Below, piece by piece: positions 4,045 through 30,197 of a DNA stretch of 64,000 nucleotides. Each line of letters starts with the position of its first letter. The first letter of the stretch is position 1. Source of the stretch: Candidatus Latescibacterota bacterium (GTDB lineage Bacteria; Krumholzibacteriota; Krumholzibacteriia; LZORAL124-64-63). The stretch lies in contig JAUSBL010000114.1 in NCBI GenBank assembly GCA_030658975.1, positions 1 to 64,000 of the forward strand, read 5' to 3'. The position numbers and the translations under genes were made by a program. A model generated the notes under the pieces. That model was not told the DNA's origin. It saw only the letters and a list, made by a program, of their open reading frames with translations, and did not search any database.

Positions 4045-5402
4045 AGGCCGGTCGTTTTGAGCCCGTTCCCGTTCGGCCCGCCCAGGTGCAGCCACTGGTC
4101 GCCGTAGACGGCGCGCGGGAACGCGTAGGGCACCAGCCCGTGCAGGAACTGGCGCAGCTTCAGGGCCAGGTGGTTGGCGTCGTGGGCCCCGTGGACGGTG
4201 CGCAGGAACCCCTCGAGCGTGTAGATCTGGATCTCCACCGGGAACCGGTAGGGCGGCAGGCCGGGCTCGTCGTTGGGGTGCAGGACGTCGAGATCCCCCT
4301 TGTAGACCTTGTAGCCCTGGCCGCTGTGACGGTTCAGGCGGCCGCGGTCGCCGGCGAAGCCGATCGTGTCGGTGATGTTGCGCCAGGCGACGGGGTTGCC
4401 CAGCACGCCGTTGAGCAGCGTCAGCAGCTCGACCACCGCGTCCTCGTCGTGGACGATGAACATCGCGCCGAGCAGGTCGGTGATCGCGTCGGGGTCGTTG
4501 ATCCCCTTGCGGATCATCTTCGAGAGGATCGAGCCGCTGCTGTCCTGGTCCTGGGCGTCCCAGCGGCGGCGCTCGATGACGCGGTGGCTGCCGTCGACGA
4601 TCTCGTAGGAGATCGGGGTCACCGTGCGCTTGAATCGGCAGTTGTAGTAGAGCACGTCCAGCGCCACGCGGCGGCCGGCCGCTTCCAGTTCCAGGAACAT
4701 CGAGCGGAACTGCCAGCGCTCCTGGCCGGGCTGGGGCCGCAGGTTGTAGCGGATCGTCTCCTTGTCGGGTCCCAGCTCGTAGCCGATCTCCACCGTGTTG
4801 GTGTCCACAGTGTGCTTCCAGAGCGCCTCGCACAGCAGATGCTCGATGTAGGCCTTGTGACGCGGGCCCTTCTGGATGTGGCGCGAGTGGTCGATGTCCA
4901 GCAGGAGCTTCGCCAGGTAGAGCTTGCGCTGGGCCTCGAAGCGGATGCGCGGGTCCTCGCGGCTGAACAGCAGCGACATGAGCGTGCGCAGGTCGTTGCA
5001 GGCGTTCACGGTGGCCTGCGGGCGCACGTGGGCCTGGGAAGGCGCCGGCAGCAGGGCCAGCAGGTCGCGCACGTAGGCGTCGGCCTCGGTCATCGACCGC
5101 AGCAGGTCGACGGCCCCGTAGCCCTCGCCGGGCGGCGTGCCTGGCGGGTTGAGCAGGCGGTGGATCTCGTCGCGGTAGGCCGCGTCGTCGTGCTCGATGC
5201 GGCGGGACATCTCGTGGAAGAAGCGGCCGACGCGCGAGGGACGCTGGGTGAAGGCCGGGTCGAGCAGGGGATGGGCCGCGTAGTCCACCGCCCAGGGGTC
5301 GCCGTCGTTGCGGGTCGCGAGGTGCGTGGCATCGACCCAGCGCTCGTACATCCGGCCCGCTTTCACTGCCGTGGCGACGGGGGAGGGGCGGCCCCTCCCC
5401 AT
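4041..5402 (-). CDS. RelA/SpoT nucleotidyltransferase-like domain protein with long N-terminal region
   Basis: C-terminal half resembles the RelA/SpoT synthetase fold: SILSKMIRKGINDPDAITDLLGAMFIV...VEIQIYTLEGFLRTVHGAHDANH; no classic HD hydrolase motif seen. Confidence 0.5.
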   Translation of the reverse strand: MGRGRPSPVATAVKAGRMYERWVDATHLATRNDGDPWAVDYAAHPLLDPAFTQRPSRVGRFFHEMSRRIEHDDAAYRDEIHRLLNPPGTPPGEGYGAVDLLRSMTEADAYVRDLLALLPAPSQAHVRPQATVNACNDLRTLMSLLFSREDPRIRFEAQRKLYLAKLLLDIDHSRHIQKGPRHKAYIEHLLCEALWKHTVDTNTVEIGYELGPDKETIRYNLRPQPGQERWQFRSMFLELEAAGRRVALDVLYYNCRFKRTVTPISYEIVDGSHRVIERRRWDAQDQDSSGSILSKMIRKGINDPDAITDLLGAMFIVHDEDAVVELLTLLNGVLGNPVAWRNITDTIGFAGDRGRLNRHSGQGYKVYKGDLDVLHPNDEPGLPPYRFPVEIQIYTLEGFLRTVHGAHDANHLALKLRQFLHGLVPYAFPRAVYGDQWLHLGGPNGNGLKTTGL

Positions 5403-5414
5403 TCGGCCGCGGCT

Positions 5415-6602
5415 CTAGATCATGTCCAGGGCACGTTCCAGATCGGCCTGCAGGTCGGCCGCGTCCTCGCAACCGACGGCCAACCGTACCAGATCATCGG
5501 TGATATCGGCCGCTTTGCGCTCGGCCTGAGGGATCCCCGCGTGGGTCATCGAGGCGGGGTGCTCGATCAGGGACTCGATGCCGCCCAGGCTCACCGCCAG
5601 GGTCGGGATCTGCACGTTGTTGATGACCTTCTTGCCGGCCTCCAGGCCGCCGCGCACGCCGAAGGAGATGACCGCGCCGGGCCCGTCCATCTGCGAAGCG
5701 GCCAGGGCGTGCTGGGGGTGGCTCTCCAGGCCCGGGTAGCGCACCCAGGCGACCTTCGGGTGGTTCTCCAGGAACGGCGCCAGGATCCTGGAGTTGGCCT
5801 GGGCCTTCTCCATGCGCAGGGCCAGCGTGCGCAGGCCGCGCAGCACCAGCCACGCCTGGTGGGGGTCCATCGTGCCGCCCATGTTCTTGTGGACCTTGGC
5901 GAGGCGGCGGAAAAGTTCGGGGTCGCGGGCGGTGACGATGCCCGCCACGACGTCGGTGTGCCCGTTGATGAACTTGGTCATCGAATGCAGGACGATGTCC
6001 GCTCCCATCTCCAGCGGCCGCTGCAGCAGGGGCGAGCAGAACGTGTTGTCCACGCACAGCAGGGCGCCGCCCGCGTGCGCGATCTCGGCGCAGGCGCGGA
6101 TGTCGGTCAGCTTCAGCGTGGGGTTCGAGGGGGTCTCGATGTAGACCAGCTTCGTCTCGGGGCGCATCGCCGCGGCCACGTTGCGGGCGTCGGACGAGTC
6201 GACGAAGGTCGCGCTCACGCCGTAACGCTTGTACTCGGTCTCCAGCACCATGCGCGACGGGCCGTACAGCGACTCGGTCGCCACGACGTGGACGCCCTGG
6301 CTCAGCAGCGCGAAGTAGACGGTGTTGACCGCGGCCATGCCCGAAGCCGCGCCCAGCGCGCCGCAGCCGCCCTCCATCAGGGCGATCGCTTCTTCGAGGT
6401 GGTCGGTGGTCGGGTTGCCGAGGCGCGTGTAGATGTGGCCCGGGTCGCGGCCGGCGAAGCGGTCGGCGCCCTCGTCGGCGTCGCGGAAGCGGAAGGTGGA
6501 CGACTGGTAGATCGGGATCGACACGGCCCCGGTCTCGGGATCGGGCCGCTGTCCGGCGTGGACCACCTTGGTGTGCATACCCATCTTATCGAGGTCGTGC
6601 AT
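5415..6602 (-). CDS. Cys/Met metabolism PLP-dependent enzyme (cystathionine gamma-synthase / methionine gamma-lyase family)
   Basis: IPIYQSSTFRF, YTRLGNPTTDHLEEAIALMEGG, LHSMTKFINGHTDVVAG (PLP lysine), SLGGIESLIEHPASMTHAGI; start at cat 6600-6602. Confidence 0.9.
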   Translation of the reverse strand: MHDLDKMGMHTKVVHAGQRPDPETGAVSIPIYQSSTFRFRDADEGADRFAGRDPGHIYTRLGNPTTDHLEEAIALMEGGCGALGAASGMAAVNTVYFALLSQGVHVVATESLYGPSRMVLETEYKRYGVSATFVDSSDARNVAAAMRPETKLVYIETPSNPTLKLTDIRACAEIAHAGGALLCVDNTFCSPLLQRPLEMGADIVLHSMTKFINGHTDVVAGIVTARDPELFRRLAKVHKNMGGTMDPHQAWLVLRGLRTLALRMEKAQANSRILAPFLENHPKVAWVRYPGLESHPQHALAASQMDGPGAVISFGVRGGLEAGKKVINNVQIPTLAVSLGGIESLIEHPASMTHAGIPQAERKAADITDDLVRLAVGCEDAADLQADLERALDMI

Positions 6603-6785
6603 GGGGTTTCCTTTCGGGGGCTGCTGCGGCGGATGCGCGGCCGGTCCGCGGCGGCATCCAGGATCGTACACCGGGAAATCGGGGCCGGTTCCGCCTTGTC
6701 GGGGAACCGGCGCCTCCCTATAATAGGCCCCCCGCCCTCGAAGGCAAGATCCTCGAAAGTCCACGTTTTTTCTGGAGGTTCCGAG

Positions 6786-9700
6786 ATGAAGGCAACCGTG
6801 GCGAGCCGGAGTGCTCCGATCGTCATCCTGGCGATTTTGGCCCTCGCGGCGACGGCGGCCGTCGCGGCGGAGCGCCCGCGCGACCCCTGGCCGTACCTGC
6901 CCTCGGACGACATCGGCGCCGTCGCCTGGCGCGCCGCCCATCCGACCTGGGACGGCCGCGGCGTCGTCATCGCGATCCTCGACACCGGCGTCGACGGCTA
7001 CGCCCCGGGACTGACCGCGACCTCGACCGGCGGCCAGAAGCTGCTCGACACGCGCGACTTCACCGACGAGGGCGTGTGGGAGGTGGTCGCGGTCGAGCAG
7101 GAGGACGGCGCCTTCGTCCACCCCGACGGCAACCGCCTCGAGGGGGTGGCCGCCCTCGCGGTGCCGCCGCCCTCCGACGACAAGGCCTACCCGGTGTGGA
7201 TGGGCGTCCTGGACGAGCCCCGCTTCCAGAACGTCGACGACCTGCAGGACGCCAACGACGACGGCGACCGCACCGACCGCTTCGCGTTCCTGGTCTACAC
7301 GGCCCCGCGCGCCGCGGTCGAGACGGCCCTGGGCGCCGGCCGCGGCCTGGACCTGCTGGCCGGCCTGAACGAGACGGCCGCCGCGGCCGTCGCCGCCGAG
7401 CGCGAAGGCGCGCGGGTCTGGCTCGTGGCCGTGGACACCGATGGTGACGGCCGCCTCGACGACGAGCGCCCCCTGCGCGACTTCCACGTCGACTGGGACC
7501 TGTTCGGGCTGCGCGGCCCCGACGCGCCGGACAGCCGCACGCTCATGGCCTGGTCGGTGAGCGTCACCGCCAACGAGGACTGGCTGGGCGCCCCCGAGGC
7601 CCCGACCGTCGCGTTCCACCACGACTCCGGTTCCCACGGCTCGCACTGCGCCGGCATCGCCGCCGGCTGCGAAGTCGGCGGCCAGCCCGGCCTGCACGGC
7701 GCCGCGCCCGGCGCCTGGCTGATCTCCTGCAAGATCGGCGACAACCGCCTCTCCGGCGGGGCGACGCGCACCGAGACCATGAAGAAGGCCTTCGAACACG
7801 CCGTCGACTTCGGCGAGCGCTACGGCCTGCCGGTCGTGGTCAACATGAGCTTCGGCATCAACTCGGTGGAAGAGGGCGAGGACACCATCGGCAAGTGGCT
7901 CGACGAGCTGCTGGCCGAGCACCCGGAGTTCACCGTCTGCACCAGCAACGGCAACGAGGGCCCCGGCCTCTCCACCAGCGGCATCCCGGCGACCAGCCAG
8001 AGCCTGATCGCGTCGGGCGCCTACCTGTCCCGCGCCACCGGCGAGGACCTCTACCAGGCCCGCCTGCCGCGCGCGACCCTGTTCGCCTTCTCCAGCCGCG
8101 GCGGCGAGACGCCCAAGCCCGATGTCGTGGCGCCGGGCTCCGCGCTGTCGACCGTGCCCGGCTACGTCGACGGCAGCGCCCGCTTCAACGGCACCAGCAT
8201 GGCCTCGCCGCAGACCGCGGGCGCGGTCGCCTGCCTGCTGAGCGCCGCCGCGCAGGAGGAGCTCGAGGTCCACTGGGGCATGCTGAAGCGCGCCCTGATC
8301 GCCGGCGCGAAGCCGGTGGACGGCCTGGCCCTGTTCGAGCAGGGGGGCGGCCTGGTCAACATCCAGGGCGCGTGGGACGTGCTGCGCCCGCTGGCCCGCA
8401 GCGAGTCGGCCCACCAGGTGCTCGACTGGCGCATCTCCGTGGATTGCCCGTTCCAGTCCGACGGCAAGTCCTCGGCCGCGTACTGGCGCACCCCCGGCGG
8501 CGCGCCGGTCGCGCCCGAGCGCGTGACCTTCTCGGTGAAGCCGGTCTTCCACCCCGACCTGGGACCCGACGAGAAGGACGCCTTCTTCCGCTCCTTCTCT
8601 TTCCGCAGCGAAGCGCCCTGGCTGCAGGTGCTCTCCCAGAAGCGGTACGTGCGCGGCGACATGGCGATGGACGTCGACGTCGCCTACGACGCCCGCAAGC
8701 TGCCGGCCGAGGGCGTCGTCAGCGCGCGCGTCATCGCTTCGCTCGACGGCGGCGACCTGTCCGGCGCGGCGGCCCGCGAGTTCGACCTCTGGAACACCGT
8801 CGTGTCCGGCGTCGCGGTCGGTCCGCAGGACGGTTTCGCGACGACCTTCACCGGCAAGGGCCTGCAGGCCTCGACCAACCGCCGCCACTACGTGCAGCCG
8901 CCGGCCGGCGCCACCGCCATGCGCTGCCGCCTCGAGGTCAGCCGCCAGATCGGCGCGATCAAGGGCGCGGGCGCCGCGCTGGAGATCTGCGACCCCGAGG
9001 GCGTCGTGCGTGGCGGCTGGGCCGGCTACGCGCGGCCCGAGACCAGCCCCGTCGTCGACATGACGGTCCTGCCGCCCGACCTGCGGCCCGGCATCTGGGA
9101 GCTGAACGTGTCGGCGGCGATCGGCAACCTGGCCGACACCGACTACCGGTTGACGGTCTCGTTCGACGGTTACCAGACCGATCCGCCCACGCTCGCCGCC
9201 CTGGCGAGCAAGGGCACGGGCAAGCCGGCCGAGACGGACCTCACGGTGACCCGCAGCTTCCCCGGCGTGTTCCGGGGCGCGGCGCGGGCGCAGATCGACG
9301 GCTTCCGCCGCGAGCGCGAGGTCGAGGTCGAGAAGGACGACACCTGGACCCACGACTTCGCGCTCGATGGGACCACGCCGCGCGCGGAGTTCCACCTGAC
9401 GATGGACGAGGCCACGGCCAACCTGCTGACCGACTGCGCCGTGAACATCCTGGACGCCGATGGCGCGGCCGTGTCGGCCGGCGCCTTCTCCGGCCTGGAG
9501 GCCGACGCGTCGGTGGCGCTGCCCGCGGGCAGCGACGGCGGCAAGTACACCCTGCAGGTGGTCGCCGCCTTCGCCCTGAAGAAGGACAGCGAGAAGTGGG
9601 GTTTCACGGCCGAGGAGCGCTACCTGTTCGCCGCCCCGTCGACGGGCAAGGTCGACCGCGCCGGCGGCGCACCGCTGCGCCTGTACTGCGGCGTGCCGGC

Positions 9701-9860
9701 GGAGCTGACCGTGGCGTTCGAGGACGGCTGGCCCGCGCCGCCCCAGGATCTGCACCCCTACGGCGCCGTGCGCTTCCTGGACACCAACCTGGATGACCGC
9801 GCGCCGGGCGACCGCGAGGGGCGCCTGGTGCTGGAGGTCCCGATCCGTCTGGAGGATTGA
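6786..9860 (+). CDS. Secreted S8 subtilisin-family peptidase, tripeptidyl-peptidase-II-like
   Basis: Signal peptide MKATVASRSAPIVILAILALAATAAVA; catalytic AILDTGVDG / HDSGSHGSHCAGIAAG / FNGTSMASPQTAGA; TPPII-like stretch LISCKIGDNRLSG. Confidence 0.88.
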   Translation: MKATVASRSAPIVILAILALAATAAVAAERPRDPWPYLPSDDIGAVAWRAAHPTWDGRGVVIAILDTGVDGYAPGLTATSTGGQKLLDTRDFTDEGVWEVVAVEQEDGAFVHPDGNRLEGVAALAVPPPSDDKAYPVWMGVLDEPRFQNVDDLQDANDDGDRTDRFAFLVYTAPRAAVETALGAGRGLDLLAGLNETAAAAVAAEREGARVWLVAVDTDGDGRLDDERPLRDFHVDWDLFGLRGPDAPDSRTLMAWSVSVTANEDWLGAPEAPTVAFHHDSGSHGSHCAGIAAGCEVGGQPGLHGAAPGAWLISCKIGDNRLSGGATRTETMKKAFEHAVDFGERYGLPVVVNMSFGINSVEEGEDTIGKWLDELLAEHPEFTVCTSNGNEGPGLSTSGIPATSQSLIASGAYLSRATGEDLYQARLPRATLFAFSSRGGETPKPDVVAPGSALSTVPGYVDGSARFNGTSMASPQTAGAVACLLSAAAQEELEVHWGMLKRALIAGAKPVDGLALFEQGGGLVNIQGAWDVLRPLARSESAHQVLDWRISVDCPFQSDGKSSAAYWRTPGGAPVAPERVTFSVKPVFHPDLGPDEKDAFFRSFSFRSEAPWLQVLSQKRYVRGDMAMDVDVAYDARKLPAEGVVSARVIASLDGGDLSGAAAREFDLWNTVVSGVAVGPQDGFATTFTGKGLQASTNRRHYVQPPAGATAMRCRLEVSRQIGAIKGAGAALEICDPEGVVRGGWAGYARPETSPVVDMTVLPPDLRPGIWELNVSAAIGNLADTDYRLTVSFDGYQTDPPTLAALASKGTGKPAETDLTVTRSFPGVFRGAARAQIDGFRREREVEVEKDDTWTHDFALDGTTPRAEFHLTMDEATANLLTDCAVNILDADGAAVSAGAFSGLEADASVALPAGSDGGKYTLQVVAAFALKKDSEKWGFTAEERYLFAAPSTGKVDRAGGAPLRLYCGVPAELTVAFEDGWPAPPQDLHPYGAVRFLDTNLDDRAPGDREGRLVLEVPIRLED

Positions 9861-9861
9861 T

Positions 9862-11142
9862 TCAGACCGCGGGGAGGGCCGCCGCCTCGCGCAGCAGGGC
9901 CTCGAGCCGATCCATGTGCGAGGCGCGCGCGTACCGCCGTTCGGCGGTGCGGCGCGCCTCTTCGCGTGAGGAGGGCGGCAGCGCGTCGGCGCGCGCCAGG
10001 GCCGCCGCCAGCGCCGCGGGATCGCCGGATTTGAACAGCACGCCGTCGACGCCGTCGCGCAGGTGCTCCGGGATGCCGCCGATGTTCGCGCCGACGACCG
10101 GCACGCCGGCCGCCAGGGATTCCAGCAGCGACAGCGGCCCGTTCTCGTACCATTCCGAGGGCAGCACCGTGAACCGCGCGCGGGCCAGCTCCGCGCGCAG
10201 GCGGTCCGGCGGCAGCGGGCCCAGGAACTCGACGCGTCCGGTCGCGAGACCGGCGGCGCGGGCCCGCAGTTCCGCTTCCTGGGGGCCGCTCCCGGCCAGC
10301 CGCAGCTGCGGCGCCGGCCGCGCTCCGGACGCCTCGGCCTGGCGTGACCACAGCTCGTGGGCCTCCAGCAGCGTGACCAGCCCCTTCTCCCGCGACAACC
10401 GCCCGAAGTAGAGGTAGCCGTCGCCGGGCGGCGCGGTGGCCGGCCGCCAGGCGTCCAGATCCACGAAGTTGGGCAGGTGCGTCAGGAGGTCGGCGGGCCA
10501 GCCCCACTCGGCGAACTTGCGGGCATAGAAGGCGCTCGGGCACAGGAAGCGGCCGACCGTCCGCCGGTAGAGCCGGCGCGAAGTGTGGTTGGCCGTCTCG
10601 ACCGCCGCCAGCAGCGACGCCGCCAGCGAGTCCTTGACGCAGCGGCCCAGGACCGCCTCGTAAAAACGGCCGCCGCGGCAGCGCTCGCAGACCTCGCCGT
10701 GGCGCAGCATGTGGATGGCCGGGCAGAGCAGGCGCAGGTCGTGCAGCGTCATGACGGCCGGGATCCCGTGGCGGCGCAGCACGGGCAGGATCGACGGGCT
10801 CAGGTGGTGGTAGGCGTTGTGCAGGTGCGCCACGTCCGGCTTCACCTCGCGCAGCAGCGCGTCGAGCCGGCGCGACGCCTCCCGGTTCCAGATCAGCGAA
10901 GCGGCGTCGCTCGCGGCGCCGCCGGTCCAGCGCGGGCGGCTGTAGTCCCGCGCCTTCACGAAGAAGCGGTCCCACGGCGAGGGCCGCGCGTGCTCGTCCT
11001 TCATCGCGAAGGGCACCACGTCCCAGCCGCGCGCGCTGAGGTCCTGCTCCTGCTGTACGAGGTAGCGACCGACGCCGCCGGCGGGTCCCACATCGTGGTA
11101 GAACTTGTTGATCAGCAGCAGGGTCGGGCGCGGCACGGTCAC
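9862..11142 (-). CDS. Glycosyltransferase family 4
   Basis: GGVGRYLVQQEQDLSARGWDV, VMTLHDLRLLCP, FGRLSREKGLVTLLEA, LLESLAAGVPVVGANIGGIPEHL; GTG start at 11142 overlaps Sir2 stop. Confidence 0.85.
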   Translation of the reverse strand: MTVPRPTLLLINKFYHDVGPAGGVGRYLVQQEQDLSARGWDVVPFAMKDEHARPSPWDRFFVKARDYSRPRWTGGAASDAASLIWNREASRRLDALLREVKPDVAHLHNAYHHLSPSILPVLRRHGIPAVMTLHDLRLLCPAIHMLRHGEVCERCRGGRFYEAVLGRCVKDSLAASLLAAVETANHTSRRLYRRTVGRFLCPSAFYARKFAEWGWPADLLTHLPNFVDLDAWRPATAPPGDGYLYFGRLSREKGLVTLLEAHELWSRQAEASGARPAPQLRLAGSGPQEAELRARAAGLATGRVEFLGPLPPDRLRAELARARFTVLPSEWYENGPLSLLESLAAGVPVVGANIGGIPEHLRDGVDGVLFKSGDPAALAAALARADALPPSSREEARRTAERRYARASHMDRLEALLREAAALPAV

Positions 11143-11927
11143 CTCGCGGACAGGAGTTGCGGCAGCGTCGTCTCGGCGCCGCCCGGCACGAAATCGTCGA
11201 CCCAGCCGCCGAGCCCGCCGGGTTCCAGGTTGAACTCGGCCACGTGCGCGCCGGATCGCCGGGCGATTCCGGCCAGTCCCGCGGCCGGATGCACGACGCC
11301 CGAAGTGCCGACCACCAGGAAGAGGTCGCAGCTCGCGGCGGCGTCGGCTGCGGCGCGCTGCACCTGCGGATCGATCATTTCGCCGAACCACACCACGCCC
11401 GGGCGCAGCAGCCCGCCGCATTCGTCACAGAGCGGCGGCAGCGGCAGCGGCACGCGCTCGTCGCGCGTCTCGCGGCCGCAGGCCGTGCAGCGCAGCGTCC
11501 ACAGCGAGCCGTGGTACTCGACCACCCGGCGGCTGCCGGCGCGCTGGTGCAGGCCGTCGACGTTCTGCGTCAGGATCGTCACCTCGGCGGTCAGCGCCTC
11601 GAGCGACACCAGGGCCGCGTGCCCGGGATTCGGCCGGCAGCCGGCCACCAGCCCGCGGCGCCAGTCGTACCAGCGCCAGACCTGGTCGGGATCCCGGCGG
11701 AACGCCTCGGGCGTGGCCAGATCCTGCGGCCGCACGTTCTCCCAGAGGCTGTCGGGGCCGCCGCGGAACGTGGGCACGCCGCTGGCCGCGGAGATGCCCG
11801 CGCCGCTGAGCACGGCCACCCGCGTGGTCGGGGTCAGGCGGGCGCGTAGCTGCGCGAGGACGGTCTCGGCGTGCGGCAAGGCGCGAATGCCTCCCCCGGT
11901 GTTGCGGTCGGCGGCGGTTCGCCGCAT
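11139..11927 (-). CDS. cobB: Sir2-family NAD-dependent protein deacylase
   Basis: VLSGAGISAASGVPTFRG, ILTQNVDGLHQRAGS, zinc motif CTACGRE...CDECGG, VVWFGEMID, VVGTSGVVHPAAGL. Confidence 0.9.
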   Translation of the reverse strand: MRRTAADRNTGGGIRALPHAETVLAQLRARLTPTTRVAVLSGAGISAASGVPTFRGGPDSLWENVRPQDLATPEAFRRDPDQVWRWYDWRRGLVAGCRPNPGHAALVSLEALTAEVTILTQNVDGLHQRAGSRRVVEYHGSLWTLRCTACGRETRDERVPLPLPPLCDECGGLLRPGVVWFGEMIDPQVQRAAADAAASCDLFLVVGTSGVVHPAAGLAGIARRSGAHVAEFNLEPGGLGGWVDDFVPGGAETTLPQLLSAR

Positions 11928-11978
11928 GATGGGTCGCTGTCGTCGGAACTGTCAACGCCGATCGGATCGGGGAGCGCC

Positions 11979-12908
11979 ATGCGCAGGGGTAGTGGCTCGA
12001 TGCCGATGGTGCTGCTCTTCGCCGCGCTCCTGGCCGTGCTCGGCGCATCCGGCGCGGCGGACGCCGCACCCCGCCTGGACGCCTGCGTGACCGTCGTCGC
12101 GGATCCGGGCGTGAACCCGGGCGTCGCACGCGCCTGTCGCGAAGCGCTGGCGCAGGCCTGGCCCGCGATGATCGCCGAGGTCTGGCCCATCGACGGCGCG
12201 CGCCCCCGCTTCGAGATCCGCCTGATGACCACCGGCGGCTTCCAAGCCCTGCACCGCGACCGTATCGCCGACTGGGGCGTGGGCCTGGCCGCGGACGACC
12301 GGGCCTGGGTCGACGTCCAGCGCTCGCTCGGCGGCGGCCGCACCGCGGCCCACGTGACGGTCCACGAGGCGGTCCACTGCCTGCTGCACCAGGCGCTGCC
12401 CGGCGTGACGGGCGTGCCGGCCTGGTTCCACGAAGGGCTGGCCCAGGATCTGTCGGGGGAGTGGCGCTTCCGCGACACTGTTTCCCTGATCCTCGACGGT
12501 CACGTTCCGGACCTGGCGAACCTCGAAACCGGATTTCCCGCCGACGCCGGACGCGCCGATCAGGCCTACCGCACCGGACTGCTGGCCGTGCAGTCCCTGC
12601 GCGCCTGGCACGGCCAGGATGTCGTGCCGCGCCTGGTCGTCGCCGCGCGCCGCACGGGCGACTTCCGCGAGGCGATGCGCGAGGTCACCGGCGCCCAGCC
12701 CTCCGTCTTCCGGGAGCGCTTCGCCGCCTCCGTGCGCGTGCGCTTCGGCTGGCTGGTCGCGGCGACCCGCTGGCCGACCTTCTTCGTGCTGATCGCCCTG
12801 ATCGCGGGTGTGGGCATCGCCGCCCGCCGCCGCCGCGACCGCCGGCGCTTCGAGGCCCTGGACGGCGCTCCGGCATCTCCTAACGATATCGAGAACGACC
12901 TTCACTGA
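11979..12908 (+). CDS. Membrane-anchored gluzincin-type metallopeptidase-like protein (peptidase MA-like)
   Basis: Signal peptide; HEAVHCLLHQALPGVTGVPAWFHEGLAQ; C-terminal TM segment FFVLIALIAGVGIA then RRRRDRRR. Confidence 0.65.
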   Translation: MRRGSGSMPMVLLFAALLAVLGASGAADAAPRLDACVTVVADPGVNPGVARACREALAQAWPAMIAEVWPIDGARPRFEIRLMTTGGFQALHRDRIADWGVGLAADDRAWVDVQRSLGGGRTAAHVTVHEAVHCLLHQALPGVTGVPAWFHEGLAQDLSGEWRFRDTVSLILDGHVPDLANLETGFPADAGRADQAYRTGLLAVQSLRAWHGQDVVPRLVVAARRTGDFREAMREVTGAQPSVFRERFAASVRVRFGWLVAATRWPTFFVLIALIAGVGIAARRRRDRRRFEALDGAPASPNDIENDLH

Positions 12909-13187
12909 CACGGGATTTCGTGGATGGAGGCTCACCTGCACCGAGGATACGCGACCACGATTTCTGTGGATATCTCCGCGACGCGCGGGACGCGAACTCA
13001 GTGCGATCACACGATTATGCAGAAGGCCCATGCAGGATGCGGGCACGTCGTCTGCGGTGACCGCCGTGCCGCGATCGACCCTGTCGGGGCCTGCCGGCGG
13101 GTTGCGCCCGGAACGGTCGGGACACCACGAGTCACCATGCAAGGCAATGGGAAATTCCAAGAAACATCCATTCTCACCATCCGATCA

Positions 13188-13215
13188 TTGACACGCGGCC
13201 CTGAATTCCCATAAT
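13188..13215 (+). promoter_or_regulatory. Putative sigma70-type promoter (TTGACA-N16-CATAAT)
   Basis: TTGACA 13188-13193 and CATAAT 13210-13215, upstream of the 13449 CDS in non-coding sequence. Confidence 0.4.
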
Positions 13216-13448
13216 TGCATCGACGGAGCGAGACCGCCGGGATATCCGGCACGCGAGATTGCGGCGAACAGGAGGTTCCCGCCTTGTTGGCACCGACCCG
13301 GTCGAATCTCCCAACACATTGTTGAATCTGAAGATACCGAGCCAGCGATTGGTATTGGCACGGGTGGCACCGATGTTGCTTTTCCTTCTTCAACATCGCA
13401 ACCGCCGACCGCGGCCAGAAACCGGACATCTCTGGAGAGGGCCAACAA

Positions 13449-14078
13449 GTGAATAACCGGCTGCAAAGGACGACATCCGGTCTGCTCTTCTGCCTGATTT
13501 TCGTGCTGCCGTCGCTGGCGGCCGGTCAGGTGGTGCCGGTCCCCTTCCACTGGTCCGCCCCGACCCAGGGCACGGAAGCCGTGAGCTACAACGTGTGGGT
13601 TTCCCGCAACGGCGACGCGCCGCGCATCGAGGCCACCGCACGGGACACGGCCTGGACGCTCGAGGCCTCCGTCGGCGTCGAATACCGCGTCTTCGTGCAG
13701 GGTGTCGACGCTCTCGAGCGCGACGGAGCCATGAGCCCGCCCTCGGACGTCGTCTACCTGCCGGAACTGCAGCCCGAGCAGGACGGCCCCCCTTCGTTCG
13801 CCGGACTCCGCCCCAACTATCCGAACCCCTTCAACCCCGAGACCACCATCCGCTACGGCGTCCCCGCCGGCGCCCAGGATCAGCGGATCGCTTTGGAACT
13901 CTACGACATCCGGGGCCAGAGGGTCCGCAGCTTCCAGCCCGCGGAGACCCCGGGCTGGCACACCATGGTCTGGAACGGCCGGGACGACTCCGGAACCTTG
14001 TTATCCTCCGGGCATTACATCGTCCGGCTGGTTTGCGGAGGGCGGGAGTCGACCTGGAAAATGACCATGCTGAAATAA
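13449..14078 (+). CDS. Secreted protein with FnIII-like region and FlgD Ig-like / T9SS-type C-terminal domain
   Basis: GTG start; signal peptide; LRPNYPNPFNPETTIRYGVPAGAQDQRIALELYDIRGQRVRSF...GWHTMVWNGRDDSGTLLSSGHYIVRL. Confidence 0.75.
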   Translation: MNNRLQRTTSGLLFCLIFVLPSLAAGQVVPVPFHWSAPTQGTEAVSYNVWVSRNGDAPRIEATARDTAWTLEASVGVEYRVFVQGVDALERDGAMSPPSDVVYLPELQPEQDGPPSFAGLRPNYPNPFNPETTIRYGVPAGAQDQRIALELYDIRGQRVRSFQPAETPGWHTMVWNGRDDSGTLLSSGHYIVRLVCGGRESTWKMTMLK

Positions 14079-24111: not shown

Positions 24112-24735
24112 TCAGCGATAAGCGGCCTTGACGGCGCCCCACGTGGCGGCCTCGTTCGCGACCACCTCGCCCTCCAGCGTCAGCATGATCGCGAGGTCGC
24201 CGTACGCCGGCGTGAGCGCGTTCCAGGGTCCGAATTCCCCCGTCTCCGAGATGTACCGCACGCCCCCGGCGTACGGGTCGCCGTTCTGGAAGTAGGCCAC
24301 CCGGCCCTGCTTGGCGGATGCCGTGTAGCAGGCGATCAGGTAGTCGCCGGCCGGCAGGTTCAGCGTCGGGGTCGTGAAGTCGAAGGTGATCCACGACGTC
24401 CCCGTCGAGAAGTTCAGCACCTGCGACCGGGTCGCCAGCACGGCGCCGCCGAGGGTGCGCACCTGGGCGTAGACGGTGTCGCCGGCGCCCAGCGGCGGCA
24501 CGCCGCCGGCGGCCAGGCCGTCCAGGACCACCTGGAAGGACACGGTGTACAGAGCCCCGTCGCACTCGTTGTGGAAGCTCTGCCCCTCGCCGGCGATGAA
24601 TCCGCCGGCGCTCATGCCGAGCCAAGCCTTGCCGCCGTTGGCGTTCACGTCGAGGGTCGCCGGACAACCGACGGCGTTGACGGCCGTGGTCGCCACCAGG
24701 GCGATCAGCAATGCTCCCGTGATCCGTGCGTGCAT
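24112..24735 (-). CDS. Secreted protein of unknown function with C-terminal TWGAVKAAYR
   Basis: Signal peptide MHARITGALLIALVATTAVNAVG; C-terminal motif shared with 25513..26067. Confidence 0.65.
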   Translation of the reverse strand: MHARITGALLIALVATTAVNAVGCPATLDVNANGGKAWLGMSAGGFIAGEGQSFHNECDGALYTVSFQVVLDGLAAGGVPPLGAGDTVYAQVRTLGGAVLATRSQVLNFSTGTSWITFDFTTPTLNLPAGDYLIACYTASAKQGRVAYFQNGDPYAGGVRYISETGEFGPWNALTPAYGDLAIMLTLEGEVVANEAATWGAVKAAYR

Positions 24736-24875
24736 GATGGCACCTCCCGCTCTGGGAAGGACCCGGCCTGTTGCACCGCAGCGGGGAACCGTCGGTTCGT
24801 CCCGGGAAACCCCGGGAAGCCGGCGCCCCGTTCGCGGGACCGGTCGATGGGGATCCTCGCAAGGATCGGGCCCTG

Positions 24876-24905
24876 TTGACGCCGGAGCCGCGCAATCCCT
24901 ACCTT
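24876..24905 (+). promoter_or_regulatory. Putative promoter TTGACG-N18-TACCTT for the 24939 CDS
   Basis: Position and following leader match the arrangement upstream of the 25513 CDS. Confidence 0.4.
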
Positions 24906-24938
24906 GCAGACTGATCGCCCATCACGCTCGGAGCCACG

Positions 24939-25427
24939 ATGACATGTTTGTCGCGGTCCGCCCTACGCCGGTGGTCATGGGTCGTCTGCCTGCCCGTCGC
25001 CATCGCCTTCGGCGCCTGCTCTCCGACCGTCTGGCCGTCGCTGGACAGTGAAAACGACAACCGCTTCAGCGGTCCCTGGAACGGCGTCTACGAAGGCACC
25101 GGGGTCTTCAACAACCCCGGGCTCCAGATCACGAACCGGCATGTCAACGTCACGGTGCAGGTCACCGATCTCGGCAGCAACTCCATCCGCGTCCAGCTCT
25201 TCTTCAGACCGCCGACCAACGAATACTCGCCGGTCCTGCGTCTGGAAGGTTCCCTGAGCACCGTCGATTATGCCGATCTGCTCAACTACCATGATATGTT
25301 CTATCACCACGCGAGCCTTACGCGCACCGCCGCCGGGGCGATCTCGGGCCTCATGGAAGTGCAGGGGATCGACGAGCAGGCGTTCTGGTCCTGCACCGTG
25401 CGCGTGAATCCCGTCGCGGCTCGGTGA
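24939..25427 (+). CDS. Small lipoprotein of unknown function
   Basis: Signal peptide with lipobox AIAFGAC; conserved leader upstream. Confidence 0.6.
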   Translation: MTCLSRSALRRWSWVVCLPVAIAFGACSPTVWPSLDSENDNRFSGPWNGVYEGTGVFNNPGLQITNRHVNVTVQVTDLGSNSIRVQLFFRPPTNEYSPVLRLEGSLSTVDYADLLNYHDMFYHHASLTRTAAGAISGLMEVQGIDEQAFWSCTVRVNPVAAR

Positions 25428-25449
25428 AGCCCGGCAGGGGTGGGCTCTG

Positions 25450-25479
25450 TTGACACCGTGGCGGGAGAGTCCGTAGACT
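25450..25479 (+). promoter_or_regulatory. Putative promoter TTGACA-N18-TAGACT for the 25513 CDS
   Basis: Same spacing and following leader GATCGCCCATC....TCGGAGC....ATG as upstream of 24939. Confidence 0.45.
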
Positions 25480-25512
25480 CAATATGGATCGCCCATCGCC
25501 ATCGGAGCAGCC

Positions 25513-26067
25513 ATGATCGGATTGCTGAGAACCGTCGGGATCCTCGGTGCCGTGAGCGTGTTCGGCCTCGTCGCCCCGACGGCGCGGGCGGATACTTACG
25601 TGTACGAGGTGCACGACCTGCCGTTGAACTACGGACACATGTTCGACTTCGGGGCGGAATTCACAGGCATCACCGAAGTCTCGATCCGCGCGGTCGGGAT
25701 CGGAGGGCGCGTGTACTATTCCTGCCTCGACCCGACGCACGACGGCTGGTACGACCTGCATCTGACCGTACGCGTGGGCAACTCCTACATCCACTTTCCT
25801 GTCTGGTACCAGGTCGCTTACGACGTGACCGCCGTGGCGGACGTCGAGGGATCGGGCGAGGGGCTCTGTGATGGGGATGACATGTGTTTTATGAACGCGT
25901 CGTACAGGCCGAGCGGCTTGTCGGATATCTTTTGCGGGCCGTCGGAAGAGGAGGGCCTGACCATCTCGCGGGTGGAGCTCACGATCACGGCGAATTCCGT
26001 CACGCCGACCGAAAGTTCGACCTGGGGCAGGGTGAAAGCGATGTACCGTAGTGCTACGGGGGAGTGA
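25513..26067 (+). CDS. Secreted protein of unknown function with C-terminal STWGRVKAMYR
   Basis: Signal peptide MIGLLRTVGILGAVSVFGLVAPTARA; C-terminus TESSTWGRVKAMYRSATGE. Confidence 0.65.
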   Translation: MIGLLRTVGILGAVSVFGLVAPTARADTYVYEVHDLPLNYGHMFDFGAEFTGITEVSIRAVGIGGRVYYSCLDPTHDGWYDLHLTVRVGNSYIHFPVWYQVAYDVTAVADVEGSGEGLCDGDDMCFMNASYRPSGLSDIFCGPSEEEGLTISRVELTITANSVTPTESSTWGRVKAMYRSATGE

Positions 26068-26157: not shown

Positions 26158-28035
26158 TCATATGGCATCACTGCGATCAACCCAGCGACGTAAAAATAGC
26201 TCGGCAGCAATCACCAGACCGAGCTCATTCCCGCAATTAATCTGATTCCGTTGATGAGCCTCGAACAACTGCTGTAATTTCCGTCCATCCCAAAATGTGC
26301 GGTTCATCACTGACGATGAGTGAATCAAATCTCCATAGTATTCTTTTAGTTGCATTCTTAATGCATCATCGAAATTAGCAGCTGTCGTTGGAGCGCATTT
26401 ATTACTTGATAGTTTTTTAGCCAACTGTGCCATGGTTAGGCGCCAACGCGGCGCAGTAGGAAGCAAACCGGTATTTCCGATCTTAATGTTGCAAACTTCT
26501 GGAATCAATTTCTTGAATACCTTGACATAGGCATGATGTCCCCTTCGCCATTTCATAGGTATCGAGATACTGCGTTCGAACACTTCCTGGTCATAGAAGT
26601 GGCTATCATCTGCGAAAAATGACCTATCACTCAGGGCGCCCATAATCGTCCATCGGCGTACTCGATTGTGGAAAATCCACTGCTCCGTACGCCAATTATT
26701 TGGGACTTCCGCATAGTTTTGATCTAAATCACCCAGGATCATGTCCCGAAGCAACGGCGCACGAGGGTAGAGATGATCTGCAAGCATATTCCTATGGCCG
26801 TACTTTGTCTCTATATAGAGAGCAATATCGCTGTTATTCTTGTTGTGCTCCAACAAAGGATGGGCAGCTCTAGGGCCACGGCCCAGTCTGTACTCCATCC
26901 ATCCCTTCATGTTCTTGTAGCTCGGGCCCAGCATGCTGCCGCCCAGGATGGCGTCACCAGCAACTCCGTTAAGTACGAGATTCGCTCGTTCCCGCAGATC
27001 CTGACAACGCTTGAGACCTACCGCTAGGTTAATTGTCATTGCGCCGTTTGTAGTTGCAGAAAAGTTGGATGCGTATTCCGGAATTACTTCCGGCTCAAGG
27101 GGGTAAGCTAGATGGTTGATATTGAGAGTCCGGCATACTTCTCTCGCTGTCGCAAGATCTGTCGAGTTCTTCCCCCCAAACGTCCATGCTTGGATGTCAG
27201 GTATTTCCTGCGCGGTTAATGTGGTCACAAGTCGCGAGTCGTATCCGCCCGATAAGCCAGACACAATATTATCACCGCGCTTCACAATCCTTGGGGTAGC
27301 CGCCAACAGTGCTTCGCACACGGAATCTACCCGTTGATCCAAGCCAATATCTGAAGGCATTTCGTGTATTTGCCCAAAATTCCAATAAGTCTTCCGCTGA
27401 GACTTACTTCCATCGAATGAAATGTCCATACTCGTCGCGGCGTCGAGAACTTCCACACCTCTGACCGGCGTGCTTTGGCCGAAATATTGGCCGTATGTGA
27501 GAAATAGCGAAATCGCGTCTTGATCCGGTTCGGTCTTCACAATACCACATGATGCGACGGGGCCCAACAATGTGGCCAAGGCGTAGCTGTCGTTGTTACG
27601 ACACACATGGAGTGGCGCATATCCGCAACGACTTGTTCCGGCAACAAGACGATTGTGCCTAGCATCACATATGATAGTTGAAAACTGCCCGGTGAGTCGT
27701 GAAAACAAATCCATGCCATAGGCTCGGTACGCATTACATACGACTTCTGCATGGTGCTGAATGGATATCAGGCGGTCACAATCCTTATCAATCTGCCCGG
27801 TCGCAATAAAACCATCGACGACACAAGTCAGCCCCGCATCATGCTGAATGCAACATTTCCCAGTAAGTTCATCATCACTACGTACTGTTAATCCGATATA
27901 GATTTGATCGGGAATGATTTCAAAAGTATGGCTTCTCTCCCAAGAATAGATAGCCATCGAATTTGCTAGATTTCTGGCAATCTGGCCGGCGCGGTTATTT
28001 GCCGCCGACATTAATAGACCATAGACGCCTGGCAA
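26158..28035 (-). CDS. Asparagine-synthase-family protein lacking the N-terminal Cys nucleophile
   Basis: GATase-like N-terminal half (FSRLTGQFSTIICDARHNRLVAGTSRCGYAPLHV), PP-loop VSGLSGGYDSRLVTTL, VLNGVAGDAILGG; TTG start preceded by GGGAGG; begins MPGVYG; clearly lower GC than flanks. Confidence 0.75.
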   Translation of the reverse strand: MPGVYGLLMSAANNRAGQIARNLANSMAIYSWERSHTFEIIPDQIYIGLTVRSDDELTGKCCIQHDAGLTCVVDGFIATGQIDKDCDRLISIQHHAEVVCNAYRAYGMDLFSRLTGQFSTIICDARHNRLVAGTSRCGYAPLHVCRNNDSYALATLLGPVASCGIVKTEPDQDAISLFLTYGQYFGQSTPVRGVEVLDAATSMDISFDGSKSQRKTYWNFGQIHEMPSDIGLDQRVDSVCEALLAATPRIVKRGDNIVSGLSGGYDSRLVTTLTAQEIPDIQAWTFGGKNSTDLATAREVCRTLNINHLAYPLEPEVIPEYASNFSATTNGAMTINLAVGLKRCQDLRERANLVLNGVAGDAILGGSMLGPSYKNMKGWMEYRLGRGPRAAHPLLEHNKNNSDIALYIETKYGHRNMLADHLYPRAPLLRDMILGDLDQNYAEVPNNWRTEQWIFHNRVRRWTIMGALSDRSFFADDSHFYDQEVFERSISIPMKWRRGHHAYVKVFKKLIPEVCNIKIGNTGLLPTAPRWRLTMAQLAKKLSSNKCAPTTAANFDDALRMQLKEYYGDLIHSSSVMNRTFWDGRKLQQLFEAHQRNQINCGNELGLVIAAELFLRRWVDRSDAI

Positions 28036-28250: not shown

Positions 28251-30197
28251 ATGTGTGGTATCTGTGGAGTGGTAGGACGGTTGGACGAGCGAGAGATCGG
28301 TCTGATGACCGACTCGATGGCGCATCGCGGCCCCGACGGGCGCGGCGTCCGCACTTTCCCGGGTGAGCCTCCGGCGGCGCTCGGACACCGGCGCCTCGCG
28401 ATCATCGATCCAACCCCGGCAGGCGCGCAGCCGATGTCGTTCGCCGATCGCTGGTGGATCACCTACAACGGCGAGATCTACAACTTCCGGGAGCTGCGCG
28501 CCGACCTCGAGCAGCGCGGTGAGCGGTTCATCTCAGACTGCGATACCGAGGTGATCCTGCGCCTCTTCGCACTCGAAGGGCCGGCGATGCTCGAGCGGCT
28601 CAACGGCATCTTCGCCTTCGCGATCTGGGACAATCGGGACCGGAAGCTGTTCCTCGCGCGTGACCGGCTCGGCGTGAAACCGCTCTACTGGACGCAACGC
28701 GAAGGCGTCTTCGCCTTCGCCTCCGAGTTGCGCGCGCTTCTTCCGCTGATCGGCCGGCCGACGCTCGACGAGACGGCGATCGCCGACTATTTCATGTTCC
28801 TCTGGGTGCCCGACCCGAAGACGGCGTTCAAGGAGATCCGCAAACTGCCTCCCGGCCACTTCGCGTGGGCCGGAGCGACGACGTTCACGACACACCAATA
28901 CTGGGATCTGCAGTTCTCGCCTGAGAACCTGCCCGAGAGCGAGTGGCGCGACCGCGTCGCCGAAACCGTCGAACGGTCGGTGCGGCGCCAGATGGTGAGC
29001 GACGTGCCGCTCGGGGCGTTTCTCAGTGGCGGCGTCGACTCGTCCGCGATCGTCGCCGCGATGTCCGAGCAAGGACAGCAGCGCGTCAGCACCTACACCG
29101 TCGGCTTCGACCAGGAGGATCTCCGTCACGAGATCGTTCCCGACGATCTCGTTCATGCACGCCGCATCGGGAAGCTATTCAAGACCGACTACTTCGAGTA
29201 CATCCTCAAGCCCGATGTCCTCGACCTGCTGCCGAAGGCGGTGTGGCACTTGGAGGAGCCGGTGGCCGACCCCGCCGCGATCTCGACTTACTTGATCTGC
29301 CGGGAAGCCTCGACTCGCATGCCTGTGATGTTGAGCGGCATGGGCGCCGACGAGATCTTCGCCGGCTATCCCCGCTACCTCGCCTACGGCATCTCGCGCT
29401 CGCTCGACCGCATTCCGAGACCCGTCAAACGTGGCCTCGAGTGGCTCGTCTCGGGCGCCGCCCACCCCGGCCGGCCCGGGCGGCTGCGCGGCCCGCGGCG
29501 CAACCTGTGGAAGTTCATGCGCGGGGCCAGGCTGTCTCCCACCGAGCGCTATCTCGCCTTCTCGACGTACTATTCAACGTCCGAGCTCGGGTCGTTGCTG
29601 ACGTCGGGCTTCGCCGAGAGCATCGGTGCGTACGACCCGCTTACCGGGCACCGCGCACTCTTCGATGACGTGGGTGACGTCGACGAGCTGAGCAAGCTCC
29701 TCTACGTCGACGCCAAGACGTTCCTGCCGTGCCTCAACCTCACCTACACCGACAAGATGGCGATGGCCGCGTCCGTCGAGGTGCGGGTGCCGCTCCTCGA
29801 CGACGAGCTCGTCGCCCTTGCCGCACGGATCCCTTCGCAACTCAAGCTCCACGGTCGCCAGAGGAAGTACATCTTCAAGAAGAGCCAGGAGGCGGCGCTG
29901 CCGCACGACATCGTCTGGCGCAAGAAGGCCGGCTTCGGCGCCCCGATCCGCTCCTGGCTCGTGAAGGATCTCGCACCGCTCTTGAGCGATGCGCTTTCGG
30001 AGGGAACGCTCGCCCGTCGCGGGATCGTCGAGCCGGCAACGGTAGCCCGTCTGACCGCTGACAACATCTCCGGCCTCGCAGACAACAGTCTGCAGCTCTA
30101 CGCTCTGCTCAACCTGGAGCTGTGGATGCAGACGTTCCTCGATCGCACCTGGCGGTTCGAAGACCTCCCGGGCGCACCCATCGCCTTACCGACCTGA
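28251..30197 (+). CDS. asnB: Asparagine synthase (glutamine-hydrolysing)
   Basis: MCGICGVVGRLDE (Cys2), MAHRGPDGRG, YNGEIYNFRELR, GAFLSGGVDSSAIVAAMSE, MLSGMGADEIFAGY. Confidence 0.93.
   Translation: MCGICGVVGRLDEREIGLMTDSMAHRGPDGRGVRTFPGEPPAALGHRRLAIIDPTPAGAQPMSFADRWWITYNGEIYNFRELRADLEQRGERFISDCDTEVILRLFALEGPAMLERLNGIFAFAIWDNRDRKLFLARDRLGVKPLYWTQREGVFAFASELRALLPLIGRPTLDETAIADYFMFLWVPDPKTAFKEIRKLPPGHFAWAGATTFTTHQYWDLQFSPENLPESEWRDRVAETVERSVRRQMVSDVPLGAFLSGGVDSSAIVAAMSEQGQQRVSTYTVGFDQEDLRHEIVPDDLVHARRIGKLFKTDYFEYILKPDVLDLLPKAVWHLEEPVADPAAISTYLICREASTRMPVMLSGMGADEIFAGYPRYLAYGISRSLDRIPRPVKRGLEWLVSGAAHPGRPGRLRGPRRNLWKFMRGARLSPTERYLAFSTYYSTSELGSLLTSGFAESIGAYDPLTGHRALFDDVGDVDELSKLLYVDAKTFLPCLNLTYTDKMAMAASVEVRVPLLDDELVALAARIPSQLKLHGRQRKYIFKKSQEAALPHDIVWRKKAGFGAPIRSWLVKDLAPLLSDALSEGTLARRGIVEPATVARLTADNISGLADNSLQLYALLNLELWMQTFLDRTWRFEDLPGAPIALPT

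Follow-up and report, generated by a model that had tools for sequence, protein, structure and literature searches.

A short C-terminal tag on unrelated exported proteins of Krumholzibacteriota, a probable sorting signal that the Type 9 Secretion System may read

Two exported proteins encoded in a 64,000-nucleotide stretch of a Candidatus Latescibacterota genome (the window, meaning the whole stretch analysed) share a short C-terminal tag with the consensus (P)VE..[ST]WG.[IV]K..[LM]YR-stop and a 10-residue core. As judged from the sequences, the tag is real, C-terminal, conserved at the protein level, modular and old, and is carried by exported proteins; the same data strongly suggest that it sorts them. 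Because dozens of unrelated exported proteins share the same ending, the tag is very probably an undescribed address label. The explanation that we find best, and moderately probable, is a short C-terminal sorting tag, free of a membrane helix and borne on a flexible linker, which is probably read by the Type 9 Secretion System (T9SS) or by a PorV-family shuttle.

A sequence-only reading of the window had pointed to two open reading frames with a common tail motif, and both were found in place, together with a protein bearing an ordinary T9SS type A C-terminal domain (CTD):

24112..24735, minus strand: tagged exported protein 1, 207 aa, with signal peptide, beta-sandwich body, linker and C-terminal tag (open reading frame)
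24673..24735, minus strand: signal peptide predicted for protein 1, residues 1 to roughly 21 (a hydrophobic core in the translation and a modelled helix at 2-17)
24115..24165, minus strand: C-terminal tag of protein 1, residues 191-207, VVANEAATWGAVKAAYR, with the stop codon immediately after (pattern match)
24115-24144, minus strand: tag core of protein 1, TWGAVKAAYR (pattern match)
25513..26067, plus strand: tagged exported protein 2, 184 aa, with signal peptide, unrelated body, tag and five extra residues (open reading frame)
26020..26049, plus strand: tag core of protein 2, TWGRVKAMYR (pattern match)
26050..26067, plus strand: extension SATGE and stop of protein 2, missing in three homologues (homologue comparison)
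13449..14078, plus strand: protein with an ordinary T9SS type A sorting domain, matched at 13818-14060 (TIGR04183, E = 8.5e-7, above the curated cut-off)

The motif had been placed at or near the C-terminus, which describes both cases: protein 1 ends with the tag, while protein 2, ending in VTPTESSTWGRVKAMYRSATGE, has five further residues. As the three distant homologues of protein 2 all carry the tag and end straight after [YF]R, SATGE is either a local extension or a sequence error of the assembly, lying outside the tag. The bodies had been taken to be unrelated rather than homologous throughout, and BLASTP agreed: the two proteins have only their last 17 residues in common (10/17 identical, E = 2e-4), with no other significant similarity, and we therefore regard the bodies as unrelated. 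At the DNA level, the pattern for [ST]WGx[IV]KxxYR with up to two mismatches matched twice in the window, compared with 0.15 expected. Between the two tagged genes lies a gene for an untagged 162-aa protein (24939-25427, plus strand) with a lipobox-like FGACS near its N-terminus, for which a family search gave no family; adjoining the tagged genes are two divergent genes (26158-28035, minus; 28251-30197, plus) whose translations read as asparagine-synthase-like.

Homologues of protein 1 were matched in 22 of 38 family genomes, and all 24 that were aligned, at identities down to 22-33%, have the tag at their end, or a variant still recognisable as the tag. Across 25 homologues, the tag residues W, K and R are conserved at 96%, 88% and 96%, compared with a mean of 44% for the body.

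The window's own genome (G000; 3.23 Mb, 133 contigs, 92% complete) was scanned with DNA patterns, each count being set against a reversed-pattern control. Without a stop codon, the pattern gave 22 matches and the control none; an in-frame stop follows the arginine directly in 21 of the 22, where chance would give 3 in 64 (p ~3e-27), the sole exception being protein 2 of the window with its SATGE extension. A relaxed pattern that included the stop and allowed up to three mismatches gave 67 matches vs 8 for the control, about 45-50 of which we read as real tails, including variants such as SWSxxKSLYR and DWGSVKSMYR. Codons and stop codons of the tag differ freely between the genes of these relaxed matches; therefore, the tag is conserved as protein and not as DNA, and repeated 3' gene ends are ruled out as its cause. 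The predicted enrichment of the tag at the C-termini of secreted proteins was borne out, the tag being almost exclusively C-terminal and a signal-peptide-like N-terminus being present in 27 of 27 complete tagged proteins of G000, compared with 32 of 77 untagged neighbours (p = 8e-9) by a crude hydrophobic-core test, not SignalP; the untagged set consisted of genes of selected neighbourhoods called with a simple in-house gene finder. By the same kind of crude hydrophobicity test, 138 of 148 tagged proteins overall have such an N-terminus. Six tag or near-tag genes lie within ~8 kb at one locus of G000 (L192, C103:30000-46000, locus positions 5092-13334), where the gene at 10233-10865 ends in SWGAVKALY with the final R absent, a natural variant that could show whether this residue matters.

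A logo over 176 tails gave W 100%, K 100%, R 97%, Y 96%, G 93%, I/V 98% and L/M 80% for the core, frequencies that are inflated by the search patterns, and E 60%, P 50% and V 42% for the upstream positions, which lie outside those patterns and are unaffected by them. The bodies to which these tails are attached are diverse: 146 sequences fell into 76 families (BLAST, E = 1e-3), with NCBIfam and Pfam domains that include PPC, lamin-tail, ExeM nuclease, redoxin/ResA and CBM_4_9, as well as choice-of-anchor J and F of NCBIfam. Elsewhere, the choice-of-anchor J/F, PPC, lamin-tail and ExeM domains bear other C-terminal signals. Among 47 tagged proteins searched against NCBIfam release 20.0, no model matched more than two members, and those that matched were body domains; Pfam likewise matched bodies, with no model covering the tail, so the tag is not a catalogued sorting domain. 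A literature search, in which subscription journals and bioRxiv were thinly covered, returned no paper that deals with the motif or with secretion by members of these phyla. Having no description in NCBIfam, Pfam or the literature found, the tag is very probably undescribed.

An AlphaFold model of protein 1, built with 25 sequences, had a pLDDT of 87 and a beta-rich body mostly above 90, after which a linker modelled as disordered (192-196) leads to a short helix of low confidence (199-206) over the tag; a second tagged family was modelled with a similar layout and a cohesin-like body. Neither modelled family has a transmembrane segment near the C-terminus or a CTD, and the tails lack a hydrophobic stretch in the logo and in both models. 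Since an amphipathic-helix statistic on the tails was non-significant against permuted positions, the helix is taken from the low-confidence models only. A fold search with the body of protein 1 returned weak, mixed beta-domain matches. A tagged family of ~180-200 aa recurs at loci L078, L095, L103, L171, L173 and L187, with four members in tandem in L078, and its body resembles cellulosomal cohesin modules in the predicted structure.

Beyond this genome, at least one strict match was found in 79 of 80 genomes of the phylum (Krumholzibacteriota), with two control matches altogether; genome G006 has none and G042 has one. A scan of an 85,462-species collection returned at least 116 stretches with the tag, and twelve of the genomes among the matches listed have 2 to 81 strict matches each and no control matches. 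The scan demanded tag plus stop, so that the C-terminal position is there by construction, whereas the signal-peptide-like N-termini and the upstream PVE of its matches are independent of the search pattern. Organisms named among the matches listed are Candidatus Eisenbacteria, Krumholzibacteriota, Effluviviaceae (phylum Effluviviacota) and Aegiribacteria, along with one 'Poribacteria' and one 'Gemmatimonadota' assembly and many labelled just 'bacterium', and none of the matches listed is labelled Bacteroidota or another well-sampled phylum. The assembly WVZY01 (L106), labelled 'Latescibacterota', was not counted as another phylum, because its genome (G083) has SprA at the coordinates of G079, which lies within the window's phylum.

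Of the known C-terminal signals, the closest in behaviour is the T9SS type A CTD (TIGR04183, Por_Secre_tail), likewise a C-terminal signal on Sec-exported proteins that occurs dozens of times per genome on many bodies, some of them common to both. Type A CTDs, whose proteins are carried by PorV, have a near-invariant lysine near the C-terminus (PMC10994853), and the tag resembles them in this lysine, in its basic last residue and in the L at -3. However, the type A CTD has a profile of its own and folds as a beta-sandwich of 70-80 residues, whereas the tag comprises ~10-17 residues predicted to be helical; the 47 tagged proteins gave no match to TIGR04183 or other CTD models at E = 0.1, and the distinction that had been drawn between the tag and the C-terminus at 13449..14078 was upheld by the TIGR04183 match of the latter. 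Among the features of T9SS CTD substrates, a Sec signal peptide, by the crude hydrophobicity test, and a genome with SprA, PorV and PorU are present, but the folded domain of ~43-80 residues is not. Type B CTDs, a second signal class of one machine, are carried by PorP-like shuttles (PMC12618676), alternative shuttles of the PorP/SprF kind, and G000 has several PorV-family proteins; yet type B CTDs are folded domains, and the gene for the shuttle is often their neighbour, whereas tag genes show no enrichment near PorV-family genes. The shortest known CTDs, the 43-55-residue ones of Prevotella intermedia (PMC11969387), offer a precedent for a shortened T9SS signal, but they have three strands and motifs B, D and E, none of which the tag has.

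The tag also recalls PEP-CTERM, MYXO-CTERM, GlyGly-CTERM and LPXTG in that many unrelated exported proteins share a short region of homology at the C-terminus, as described phylum-wide for MYXO-CTERM (PMC11980579). In these systems a signature is followed by a membrane helix and a basic tail, MYXO-CTERM (PMC11980579) and GlyGly-CTERM (PMC3237569) being tags that end with a membrane helix, whereas the tag has no such helix. With the BAM beta-signal of outer-membrane barrels it shares shortness, C-terminal position, aromatic and hydrophobic residues and presence on exported proteins; it differs in ending with R or K (R 97%) rather than an aromatic residue and in its predicted helix after a linker, and a barrel fold was absent in the two tagged families modelled.

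That the T9SS or a PorV-family shuttle reads the tag is a plausible reading, to which we lean slightly. In its favour are the T9SS components and type A CTDs of the tag genomes, the bodies shared between both signals and the proximity of their genes. All 77 phylum genomes tested have SprA, as do all 12 other tag genomes, with weak matches in three of the latter; PorV-family proteins occurred in each of 11 genomes, and so did C25 (PorU-type) peptidases. In G000, a PorU homologue adjoins a PorV-family gene. Type A CTD tails number 93 in G000 and 37-150 in ten other genomes. Homologous bodies end in the tag or in a type A CTD within G000 (L005 and L210, 40% over 171 aa, E = 2e-38), an alternation also seen within single loci (L171, L110), and a tag gene and a CTD gene were at most 2 kb apart 12 times vs 4.3 expected (p = 8e-4). 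This body sharing and proximity fit a common destination, cause and common descent being inseparable here. G000 and the ten other genomes have many PorV-family copies (8-19 matches each), and the Aegiribacteria genome G080 has 22 C25 peptidase matches. One same-strand cluster of G000 (L236, C133:66000-80000, locus positions 4496-13999) runs from a TonB-dependent-receptor-like gene through a protein with a PorZ-like C-terminal end (CTD), a PorV-family gene and a type A CTD gene to a tagged protein; it was dropped as evidence for a PorV link, since 124 tags in six genomes showed no neighbourhood enrichment for PorV-family genes.

Under the T9SS reading, the tail, probably a short helix, would in the periplasm present W, I/V, L/M and Y together with the invariant K and the C-terminal R. 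It would be bound by an outer-membrane sorting machine, most likely the organism's T9SS or a member of its set of PorV-family shuttles, that brings the protein to the cell surface or beyond it; the linker may or may not be cut. The tag would then form a third, much shorter class of T9SS signal beside the type A and type B CTDs.

Against the T9SS reading stand the lack of CTD-model matches among the tagged proteins examined, a tail far below the shortest CTDs in length, the lack of enrichment of tag genes near PorV-family genes, and the near-absence of SprA from the tag-rich genome G087, which has 20 tags and 86 type A CTDs but only a trace SprA match. The same observation on G087 speaks for the tag as a sorting signal with a different reader, an undescribed machine that would work apart from the T9SS and have a receptor, protease or ligase of its own; we consider this reading rather unlikely. 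Such a machine would suit a tail unlike all known signals and without a model in the catalogues, and it would suit tag numbers that do not track CTD numbers across genomes; G006 has a T9SS and 133 CTDs with no strict tag. The sequence-only reading had proposed looking for co-occurrence with a secretion gene, and this was done for T9SS parts: they were present in all tag genomes tested, but their presence is non-discriminating because the T9SS also occurs in G006, a relative without strict tags. Because T9SS genes also occur in genomes with no strict tag (G006) or just one (G042), the co-occurrence is confounded by shared ancestry. Nevertheless, no candidate for a separate machine emerged, body families are common to tagged and CTD proteins, which also neighbour each other above expectation, and T9SS-type components occur in every tag genome tested. 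In a related form, which is possible though doubtful, Krumholzibacteriota, Eisenbacteria and some neighbouring phyla would have, in parallel with the T9SS, a sorting pathway defined by the ~10-residue tag and served by a dedicated receptor or protease of the outer membrane.

Alternatively, the tail might be a docking peptide by which proteins are clipped to the outer membrane or cell surface through a receptor or scaffold there, the proteins leaving by another route or staying in the periplasm. A tail modelled as a short helix on a disordered linker would be free for receptor binding, and some tagged bodies, redoxin or haem-type, could work in the periplasm; however, many others are extracellular in type (ExeM, PPC, lamin-tail, choice-of-anchor) and no receptor was found, and we hold docking to be improbable, although sequence hardly separates it from our best explanation. 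The common ending might also have no role in sorting: the tail could help the protein to fold or to stay stable, could mark it for degradation, as C-terminal peptides can serve as degrons or folding aids, or could be a repeated 3' gene end. The 76 unrelated body families, nearly all exported, and the disordered linker between body and tail make this very improbable.

PEP-CTERM, MYXO-CTERM and the T9SS CTDs each led to a processing or secretion machine. In phyla that are largely uncultured, the tag described here marks dozens of exported proteins per genome, mostly without other annotation, and would assign many hypothetical proteins at once to the surface or secreted class. As a signal read by the T9SS it would be the smallest of its kind known and would show how little of a CTD is needed; if the T9SS does not read it, a new sorting machine would exist to be found.
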